DNA of 53,799 nt from an uncultured Prochlorococcus sp. Its GTDB lineage: Bacteria > Cyanobacteriota > Cyanobacteriia > PCC-6307 > Cyanobiaceae. The notes below the pieces were generated by a model that worked only from the letters and a program-made list of their open reading frames with translations, did not search any database and was not told where the DNA came from. A program made the translations under genes and the position numbers. Positions 9,498 through 11,054 of the stretch are shown one piece after another; positions within the stretch are counted from its first letter, which is position 1, and each line of letters opens with the position of its first letter. The stretch is from assembly GCA_902578845.1 (NCBI GenBank), contig CACHEM010000006.1, positions 1 through 53,799 on the forward strand, given 5' to 3'.

Positions 9498-10292
9498 TTA
9501 AATATTGCCCACTAAAGTTACTGTTCTAAATTCAATATCCTCAATTACTTTCCAAGGTTCAGCACTCCTTTCTGCAAATTTTAAATTTTTAAATCCTAGT
9601 TCTTTAAAATCACTTATAAACTCTGGCTCGTACCATGCTCCACTAATACATCCTGTCCATAAATCATGATCATTTTGCAATCTTAAAGGAACTTTTTTGT
9701 TAGAAACGATATCGCTAATTGCAATTCTTCCATTATCGTTTAAAACTCTTTTTATGTTATTTAGAAGGTTATTTCTAGATTCTGGACTTACCAAGTTTAA
9801 AACGCAATTACTTAAAATAATATCAACTGATTTATCTGCGATTAATGGATTTAAATCTTTATCTAATTCATCAAGTTTTTCAATTGAACCTTCTAGAAAT
9901 TCTGTATTGTTGAAACCTATATTTTTTGAAACTTCTTTAGAGGCTAATCTTGATAAAGAAAGCATGTCAGGATTCTGATCAACTCCAATAACTTTCCCTT
10001 CTTTTCCAACAATTTGGGCACAAATGAAAGCATTTTTGCCGCTACCACTTCCAAGGTCTAAGACTATATCATTTTTTTGAACATATTTTGTTGGATCACC
10101 ACACCCATAGTCTCTTTCTATAACCTCTTGAGGAATTGCTTCAAGTAAAACGGGATTAAACCCAACTGGTGTACAAAGACAACTTTCTTTTTCTTGTGCT
10201 GCTGAGCCATATCTTTCTTGAATCGCATCTTTATGATCGAATAGATTAGGTGCTTTATTCGATGTGTTTGTATTACAGCAACTTTCAGACAT
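9498..10292 (-). CDS. arsM: SAM-dependent methyltransferase, putative arsenite methyltransferase
   Basis: Class I methyltransferase. SAM motif I is DIVLDLGSGSGKNAF; acidic motif II follows (KVIGVDQNPDML). The ArsM-type signatures are visible: a Cys-rich N-terminus (SESCC, then CLCTPVGF), the DYGCGDPTKYV tract, a cysteine in LSNCVLNLVSPE and another in GCISGAWYEPEF, the last two matching the arsenic-binding cysteines of the family. The predicted role is methylation of As(III), though activity on other thiophilic substrates is possible. I start at the ATG giving MSESCC; an upstream TTG in frame would run into the neighbouring terminator hairpin. No arsR or other ars genes are adjacent. Confidence 0.78.
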   Translation of the reverse strand: MSESCCNTNTSNKAPNLFDHKDAIQERYGSAAQEKESCLCTPVGFNPVLLEAIPQEVIERDYGCGDPTKYVQKNDIVLDLGSGSGKNAFICAQIVGKEGKVIGVDQNPDMLSLSRLASKEVSKNIGFNNTEFLEGSIEKLDELDKDLNPLIADKSVDIILSNCVLNLVSPESRNNLLNNIKRVLNDNGRIAISDIVSNKKVPLRLQNDHDLWTGCISGAWYEPEFISDFKELGFKNLKFAERSAEPWKVIEDIEFRTVTLVGNI

Positions 10293-10329
10293 GTTTTTTA
10301 AAGGACTCTTGATAAATATAGCCAAAAAA

Positions 10330-10354
10330 AAAAGCCCCTGAAAAAGGGGCTTTT
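10330..10354 (-). terminator. Rho-independent terminator of the DUF4278 gene
   Basis: AAAAGCCCCT (10330-10339) pairs with AGGGGCTTTT (10345-10354) around the loop GAAAA. Read on the minus strand, it ends in a run of about ten T residues, 16 bases after the DUF4278 stop. It is a textbook intrinsic terminator. It also insulates the methyltransferase gene, whose ATG follows about 40 bases later. Confidence 0.9.
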
Positions 10355-10370
10355 AATTTGTTTAATTAAA

Positions 10371-10544
10371 TTATTTAGTGTAATTAACACCTCTGTAATT
10401 TAATTCTGCTTTTTCATTACTTGAAGAAGCGTCATCCATTCTGTTGGTGTATACGTTTCTTCTGTAGGTAAGTTCAACAAGTTGCTTTTTAGCAGCTTCT
10501 TTGTTTTGAACGTAGTTTTTACCTCTGTAAGTTAAAGTAGTCAT
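10371..10544 (-). CDS. DUF4278 small protein under riboswitch control
   Basis: A 57-residue protein built of three imperfect repeats around Tyr-Arg: LTYRGKNY, LTYRRNVY and LNYRGVNY, the DUF4278 signature of cyanobacteria. There is no membrane segment or catalytic motif, and the function is unknown. The frame can be extended upstream to 88 residues, but that extension translates straight through the conserved RNA fold at 10564-10616 and is GC-rich unlike the gene. I therefore use the ATG 20 bases downstream of the fold. A promoter, an NtcA-like palindrome and a terminator frame it as a monocistronic unit. By analogy with glutamine-riboswitch-controlled GifB, it could be a nitrogen-responsive regulator; this is inference. 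Confidence 0.85.
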   Translation of the reverse strand: MTTLTYRGKNYVQNKEAAKKQLVELTYRRNVYTNRMDDASSSNEKAELNYRGVNYTK

Positions 10545-10563
10545 GTTTCGATGTGACACACGG

Positions 10564-10616
10564 CCATCCCCCGTTCCATGGTATGACTCGAACTGCGCCC
10601 TCAAAGAGGGTGAACG
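10564..10616 (-). promoter_or_regulatory. Glutamine-riboswitch-like leader RNA (glnA/Downstream-peptide class)
   Basis: Read on the minus strand, the leader begins CGTTCACCCTC and contains GGGCGCAGTTCGAG. P1 is CGTTC (10612-10616) with GAACG (10572-10576). P2 is CCCTC with GAGGG (10598-10602 with 10606-10610) and a three-base loop. A pseudoknot can form between CCAT (10578-10581) and ATGG (10564-10567). This layout, and the position in front of a very short ORF, match the Downstream-peptide motif of marine picocyanobacteria, a relative of the glnA RNA that binds glutamine. The start codon lies 20 bases after the pseudoknot, so translational control or nearby folding is plausible. Confidence 0.82.
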
Positions 10617-10620
10617 AAAA

Positions 10621-10634
10621 GTAGCAATTGCTAC
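10621..10634. promoter_or_regulatory. Candidate NtcA-binding palindrome at the transcription start
   Basis: GTAGCAATTGCTAC is a perfect 14-bp palindrome and an exact GTA-N8-TAC NtcA consensus. It begins six bases downstream of the minus-strand -10 box, so it covers the expected +1 region. NtcA activator sites usually lie about 22 bases upstream of the -10, so a site here would act as a repressor. That is the arrangement expected for a gene shut off in nitrogen starvation. Alternatively it is the first hairpin of the transcript. Confidence 0.6.
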
Positions 10635-10640
10635 CAAATT

Positions 10641-10670
10641 ATTATAAGCGTATTTTTAACTGCATGTCTA
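10641..10670 (-). promoter_or_regulatory. Sigma-70-type promoter of the DUF4278 unit
   Basis: On the minus strand TAGACA (10665-10670; one mismatch to TTGACA) is followed after 18 bases by a perfect TATAAT (10641-10646). The predicted start is near 10634, giving a leader of about 90 bases that contains the whole riboswitch-like fold. Confidence 0.65.
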
Positions 10671-10796
10671 GCTTTTACAAATAGAAACGAAGATTTAATT
10701 TTTTTTTAATTATTATCTTAGGTAAATTTTTTTATAAATAGTCTCTAAAAAGGTTTATGTTTATATTTGGTTTAATCTTCATGTAACTATTTATTT

Positions 10797-11054
10797 ATGA
10801 CAGGTTTTTTATATTTCTTGGGAAATACTTTAAGGTGGCCAGTGTTAAAGCCAAAAGAATTTTTTTCACTACATGCTTATTTTTCAATTATTTATTTGAT
10901 AACTTTTACTTTGAGTAAATATGATGTAAGCCAATCAAATTTAGTTTTTACTTTAGGAATTCTTGCACCTCTTTTAATCGCTATTGGTCAAGGACTTCCA
11001 ATTGATTGCCTTGATATGGAATCATCTTTGTTGAAGGAATTAAAAACTAAATAA
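10797..11054 (+). CDS. Hypothetical small membrane protein
   Basis: An 85-residue protein I do not recognise. It has two hydrophobic segments, roughly residues 26-42 (FFSLHAYFSIIYLITFTL) and 48-65 (LVFTLGILAPLLIAIG), joined by a short polar loop, and a charged C-terminus (LLKELKTK). The start MTGFLYFLGNTLRW is followed by a KPKEF turn. It is a single-gene unit between the DUF4278 locus and nfu, converging with nfu. Codon use is like its neighbours, so it is likely a real lineage-specific gene. No function can be inferred. Confidence 0.65.
   Translation: MTGFLYFLGNTLRWPVLKPKEFFSLHAYFSIIYLITFTLSKYDVSQSNLVFTLGILAPLLIAIGQGLPIDCLDMESSLLKELKTK

Follow-up and report, generated by a model that had tools for sequence, protein, structure and literature searches.

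A palindrome matching the NtcA consensus and a Glutamine-II riboswitch in front of a small DUF4278 gene of Prochlorococcus

Our analysis of a 53,799-nt stretch of DNA from an uncultured Prochlorococcus sp. (the window) points to a nitrogen-sufficiency gene under two nitrogen sensors, NtcA acting on the DNA and glutamine acting on the RNA, a reading to which we assign a probability of roughly 0.85. When nitrogen is short, NtcA activated by 2-oxoglutarate would bind a GTA-N8-TAC palindrome filling positions +1 to +14, and the bound protein would block transcription initiation. The mRNA, starting at or beside the palindrome, would carry a Glutamine-II aptamer whose CGUUC/GAACG pseudoknot would be stabilised by glutamine, freeing the start region and turning translation on under plentiful nitrogen. 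The product would be a 57-aa protein of the DUF4278 type, which in IF17, an inactivating factor of glutamine synthetase, makes up the N-terminal half. Glutamine binding, the ON behaviour and the lower level of Yfr6 RNA without nitrogen are taken from the literature. Besides the papers cited below by PMC number we drew on three further ones (PMC2864571, PMC11288750, PMC6778093); what is published on this class agrees with the logic that a first-pass annotation of the window had predicted, namely low expression in nitrogen starvation and high expression with glutamine.

Layout of the locus and its promoter

Read on the minus strand, positions 10670 to 10371 contain promoter, palindrome, riboswitch and DUF4278 ORF in that order (Table 1). 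The TAGACA-N18-TATAAT promoter named in the first-pass annotation is present at 10670-10641, carries 11 of the 12 consensus bases and ranks first of five promoter-like sites in a scan of 10200-10900, shuffles of which gave a mean of 2.9 (sd 1.9). Six bases lie between TATAAT and the palindrome, and four more between the palindrome and the CGTTC of the aptamer. An ungapped alignment of 169 distinct loci on the palindrome gave a -10 element, T64 A85 T59 A60 A66 T70 (per cent), in columns -12 to -7, and a TANNNT hexamer stood 6 nt ahead of the palindrome in 74 of 172 loci, the commonest gap, followed by a gap of 22 nt (34 loci). The ATG and the 57-residue DUF4278 gene annotated downstream were borne out as well: the frame opens at 10544, and its product scores 42.9 bits with PF14105 (cut-off 25.3), residues 2-55 aligning with positions 1-57 of the 57 in the profile.

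Five terminator-like sites, on the two strands together, came out of a pattern scan of the region, compared with 0.3 in shuffled sequence. The terminator at 10330-10354 suggests that the gene is probably transcribed alone, as a single-gene mRNA of about 300 nt. Beyond it, at 9498-10325 on the minus strand, the window holds a SAM-dependent methyltransferase gene (Methyltransf_31, 87.3 bits), then a class-V aminotransferase gene. The methyltransferase presumably resembles arsenite methyltransferases.

Table 1. Features of the locus, in window coordinates.
Feature	Position	Strand	Basis or detail
Sigma-70 type promoter	10641..10670	-	TAGACA 10670-10665, 18 nt, TATAAT 10646-10641
GTAGCAATTGCTAC, probable NtcA operator at +1..+14, first G the presumed transcription start	10621..10634	-	conservation, Yfr6 analogy
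Glutamine-II riboswitch aptamer	10563..10619	-	Rfam RF01704, 64.7 bits
Pseudoknot PK	CGUUC 10616-10612 / GAACG 10576-10572	-	Rfam alignment
P1	CCCUC 10610-10606 / GAGGG 10602-10598	-	Rfam alignment
P2	GUCAU 10587-10583 / AUGGC 10567-10563, plus CC/GG	-	Rfam alignment
Linker from aptamer to ATG, putative expression platform, no clear Shine-Dalgarno sequence	10545..10562	-	sequence
57-codon DUF4278 gene, three LxYR(G/R)xxY repeats, 6.7 kDa, pI 9.7	10371..10544	-	PF14105 42.9 bits
Intrinsic terminator	10330..10354	-	10-pair stem, then T run

The leader RNA

The leader had been attributed to a glnA/Downstream-peptide class, and only the second half of that name holds. The covariance-model search that the annotation had proposed gave a match to RF01704 (Glutamine-II, type 2, Downstream-peptide) at 64.7 bits, well over the gathering threshold of 33 (E 2e-13), across the full length of the model (1-60/60); it is the sole match above Rfam gathering thresholds in the whole window. 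The RF01739 glnA (type 1) model reached 19.9 bits, under its threshold of 35, so that the leader does not belong to that class. Among the helices proposed earlier, the CCCTC/GAGGG hairpin corresponds to P1, and the CGTTC...GAACG pairing is present, but as the pseudoknot helix of the Rfam alignment and not as an ordinary stem, the 5' CGUUC pairing with GAACG in the P2 loop. A CCAT/ATGG pseudoknot has to be dropped, there being no such helix in the class, where P2 is formed by GUCAU/AUGGC plus CC/GG. The sequence crystallised in PMC6698751 has the same pseudoknot arrangement in the excerpt available. We found no substantive difference between the window aptamer and the RF01704 class, with which it shares sequence, pseudoknot, helices, host group and the place ahead of a small ORF; its stem GUCAU/AUGGC recurs in 25 of 167 distinct aptamers. 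By its sequence the leader RNA is thus classed as a glutamine riboswitch, glutamine binding being taken from published members, which bind L-glutamine and raise expression. These are described as ON switches by GFP fusion and as probably translational by proximity, the ribosome site presumably being covered by an alternative structure (excerpts of PMC6698751).

Glutamine-II matches occur in 61 of 61 genomes searched of the genus and in 92 of 151 searched of the family. We worked with 180 loci, the higher-scoring among the matches listed (60 from a first set, 119 other listed family matches and one from the genus list; one further family match, in G001, was already counted as L030), no two of which are exact duplicates. 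The first-pass annotation had asked whether compensatory changes occur across strains, and they were found in P1, P2 and the pseudoknot. A completely paired P2 of no fewer than 5 bp is present in 166 of 167 distinct aptamers, which use 42 different stems; in a swapped-strand control the figure was 463 of 835. Of 167 distinct aptamers (L259 excluded), 164 have the pseudoknot CGTTC/GAACG and 3 have CGTCC/GGACG, and P1 changes from CCCTC/GAGGG to CTCTC/GAGAG, with wobble intermediates, in 2 of 81 orthologues, while 2 of the 81 have one broken P1 pair; these counts include the window, its 80 orthologue loci being the best 80 of 190 relatives, chosen by 98-100% protein identity. The aptamers with both pseudoknot sides changed (L251, L253-L256) precede a 33-aa YRG protein starting MVNMYFNGKSF, for which a scan of one member (L254) gave no Pfam match. 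Four other loci (L218, L219, L260, L244) have the palindrome and a Glutamine-II aptamer ahead of a 104-109 aa protein that lacks the YRG motif and, in the one member scanned, matches no Pfam family over cut-off.

How the aptamer might act on the start region was approached by folding. By eye, the P2 strand AGUCAU is complementary to the start-codon AUGACU, UUCGA to UCGAA upstream of the start codon and, in paralogues, AGUUCGA to UCGGACU. In a swap test on 81 representatives, drawn from 190 distinct loci of 261 parsed (those lacking a YRG-like frame or having an unusual start distance being excluded), start-region closure cost 6.06 kcal/mol with the native aptamer versus 5.98 kcal/mol with a foreign one (p 0.82), the start region alone giving 4.17 kcal/mol. 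The window leader ranked high in this test, with about 1 in 40 foreign aptamers achieving equal closure of the start region, but shuffled leaders matched or beat it in 40 of 60 cases (13 to 46 of 60 for five other leaders). We therefore set aside a defined ribosome-site switch derived from folding, native leaders doing no better than foreign aptamers or shuffles.

The aptamer itself contains an ATG (CCATGG), from which translation could start, yielding an N-terminally extended protein and disrupting the aptamer. This ATG shares the frame of the ORF in 76 of the 80 orthologues. Another 3 of the 80 have it in a different frame, as does the window with its linker shorter by one base, 1 orthologue has none, and the G016 orthologue has CCAGGG, so that we regard such a start as very improbable and keep the ATG at 10544. 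A leader peptide from the same ATG, ending in ATGA on the start codon, was also considered and rejected; it needs the shorter linker of the window, which is not conserved (no more than 3 of 80 orthologues have this ATG in another frame).

The palindrome and the transcript start

The palindrome meets the GTA-N8-TAC consensus of an NtcA site exactly. Six GTA-N8-TAC sites were found in the window against 5.3 expected, no more than by chance; the longer GTAGC-N4-GCTAC occurs once in the window and in none of 100 shuffles. What our study adds is the position: in 172 of 180 Glutamine-II loci the 40 nt upstream of the aptamer contain GTA-N8-TAC, at 3-9 nt from the aptamer, compared with 8 of 1425 forty-base control windows further upstream. 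In the cross-genome comparison of the palindrome suggested by the first-pass annotation, GTAGC-N4-GCTAC was kept in 80 of 80 orthologue loci, picked by protein identity as above. The 172 of 180 loci speak against a combination special to this locus.

The palindrome is not needed for every Glutamine-II gene, as shown by the 8 of 180 loci and the lower-scoring class without it. The eight are L151, L176, L259 and five loci (L173, L203, L214, L216, L220) in which the aptamer stands before a 46-aa DUF4278-like frame, possibly a case of riboswitch control without NtcA. The lower-scoring Prochlorococcus class (L271-L276) precedes a 54-56 aa protein (MN-L..IREKI...) and showed no GTA-N8-TAC palindrome by eye in 6 loci parsed of 10 fetched; one member of the protein was scanned and matched no Pfam family over cut-off. 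The L274 aptamer matches the sequence given as RS01 in the crystallographic study (PMC6698751). Conversely, 24 of 34 GTAGC-N4-GCTAC sites in 12 genomes, and 10 of 12 in six genus genomes, adjoin a Glutamine-II match, while 10 of the 34 lie away from one, four of them inside long reading frames (L261, L263, L265, L267). Another of the ten, around position 1504 of L262, is the same GTAGCAACCGCTAC palindrome; the start codon of a 385-aa protein lies on the other strand, 77 nt from the first palindrome base. By eye this protein resembles a secreted, porin-like one, and no Glutamine-II match lies nearby.

The second addition concerns the transcript start. Yfr6 of MED4 has published coordinates of complement 627729..627972 and a 5' end called a G (PMC1242208, PMC2518516, in excerpt). 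At these coordinates of genome G016, which we take as MED4, the 244-nt RNA begins with GTAGCAACCGCTAC, and the published end is thus the palindrome's first G (the ORF starts at nt 97 of the RNA in the paper and at nt 98 by coordinates here, a one-base discrepancy). By analogy, the window palindrome would start at +1 and the window transcript at 10634. The first-pass annotation had put an NtcA palindrome over the expected start site; the palindrome does lie at 10634-10621, downstream of the -10, as it does before many paralogues and in many species, and the Yfr6 analogy sharpens its position to one starting exactly at +1. In the literature searched, with partial coverage, we found no statement of such a +1 position across loci, and we do not claim novelty for it.

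At NtcA-activated promoters the site is centred near -41.5 (excerpt of PMC3898017). The palindrome is not in that position; with the first G taken as +1, its centre falls near +7.5, which fits repression, and on its sequence and placement the palindrome is probably a repressing NtcA operator. Its position would suit an RNA function too: as a 5'-terminal hairpin, GUAGC-N4-GCUAC could protect the mRNA or aid aptamer folding, instead of or besides serving as a DNA operator. The palindrome forms the first 14 nt of Yfr6 RNA, starting at its published 5' end, forms a stem in 7 of the 8 leaders that were folded and is listed as terminator-like by the pattern scan, and such a hairpin would likewise hold a fixed distance to the -10. 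Against this, pair 5/10 shows the RNA-breaking C.A 18 times and the wobble U.G 7 times among 169 distinct palindromes, relatedness ignored. As DNA, C.A and U.G are mirror images, and the excess of C.A at this inner pair mildly favours a DNA site. The constancy of GTA/TAC among the 169 is uninformative, since it defines the pattern, and only L176 of the eight loci without the pattern has a symmetric change (GCA/TGC). Taken together, we consider the hairpin unlikely. A little less likely again is binding of the palindrome by another regulator, for example another Crp-family protein. MED4 encodes three Crp-type regulators including NtcA, according to the excerpted literature, and the conserved core GTAGC-N4-GCTAC is longer than GTA-N8-TAC; yet the site is an exact NtcA consensus and belongs to genes that are linked to glutamine and reduced when nitrogen is missing, and NtcA remains our preferred binder.

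The DUF4278 protein and comparison with known systems

Variable columns number 3, 2 and 22 at codon positions 1, 2 and 3 among the 80 orthologues, which were chosen by protein identity. Three LxYR(G/R)xxY repeats and 13 invariant residues stand out in an alignment of the window protein with 41 of 72 distinct proteins listed; the 33-aa paralogues have two repeats. An AlphaFold model shows three beta hairpins at low confidence (pLDDT 65.8, pTM 0.20), and no sequence relative was found in the PDB at E up to 1. Phage copies were also looked for. A tblastn search of 50,697 phage records gave no match at E up to 0.01, none of 16 stretches of viral contigs fitting the peptide pattern encoded a relative, and a looser scan for the palindrome plus CGTTCA gave at least 120 viral stretches, with no Glutamine-II-like aptamer by regular expression in 80 loci.

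All 7 of 7 neighbouring ORFs were matched in G016 in the same order and on the same strand, the DUF4278 protein at 93% identity. DUF4278 is matched twice in G016, by the 57-aa gene, the only one of that size, and by the 33-aa Yfr6 frame. Prochlorococcus MED4 encodes PMM1846, a 7 kDa DUF4278 protein with a glutamine riboswitch in its 5' UTR that raises expression when nitrogen is in excess, and a 2018 review, in the excerpt available, speaks of the NtcA motif in its promoter as a consensus motif only (PMC6316151). The window gene agrees with PMM1846 in its DUF4278 protein of similar mass, its glutamine riboswitch and its NtcA motif, and from synteny, size and uniqueness it is probably the orthologue. 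The combination of riboswitch and NtcA motif before this likely orthologue is therefore already known, and that part of our finding is in print in substance.

Yfr6 shares the palindrome, the aptamer, a DUF4278-like peptide and the transcript end at the palindrome's first G with the window gene, but is a paralogue, with 33 aa and two repeats as against 57 aa and three. Its RNA goes down on nitrogen depletion, in a signal that one legend calls inconstant (excerpts of PMC1242208, PMC2518516). Over 32 residues the G016 57-aa protein and the Yfr6 peptide share 69% identity. This is close to the 67% published for PMED4_04601, whose antisense RNA increases at an early stage of phage infection (excerpt of PMC2518516), and PMED4_04601 may be the same gene as the 57-aa DUF4278 gene of G016.

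More broadly, we lean towards the view that marine picocyanobacteria use one fixed two-input cassette as standard control of a small-protein family, with a promoter and an NtcA operator at exactly +1 to +14, 3-9 nt from a Glutamine-II aptamer, copied with DUF4278 paralogues and occasionally placed on other genes such as that of the 104-109 aa protein. If so, the same mRNA would be gated twice, by 2-oxoglutarate via DNA and by glutamine via RNA. The locus shows a streamlined, very abundant phototroph that probably senses its nitrogen supply twice over on a single small mRNA. The recurrent +1 palindrome makes the NtcA-plus-riboswitch design directly testable and offers a simple pattern for regulon searches.

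A further close system is gifB of Synechocystis, which encodes IF17. NtcA repression, predicted for the window gene, and a glutamine ON riboswitch ahead of a DUF4278 protein are common to both, and the first-pass annotation, which saw an unrelated protein here, erred in this respect, DUF4278 being the N-terminal half of IF17 (excerpt of PMC6316151). The two differ in the riboswitch, gifB having a type 1 (glnA) aptamer, a class whose threshold the window aptamer does not reach (19.9 bits, threshold 35), and in the protein, IF17 having a further C-terminal part. By the Pfam profile, and with IF features taken from the review description only, that C-terminal part is absent from the 57-aa protein, which is DUF4278 from end to end. 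The N-terminal part of IF17 is reported as dispensable for its function (excerpt of PMC6316151), which makes direct inhibition of glutamine synthetase by the 57-aa protein doubtful; the short DUF4278 proteins thus consist solely of the part that IF17 is reported to do without.
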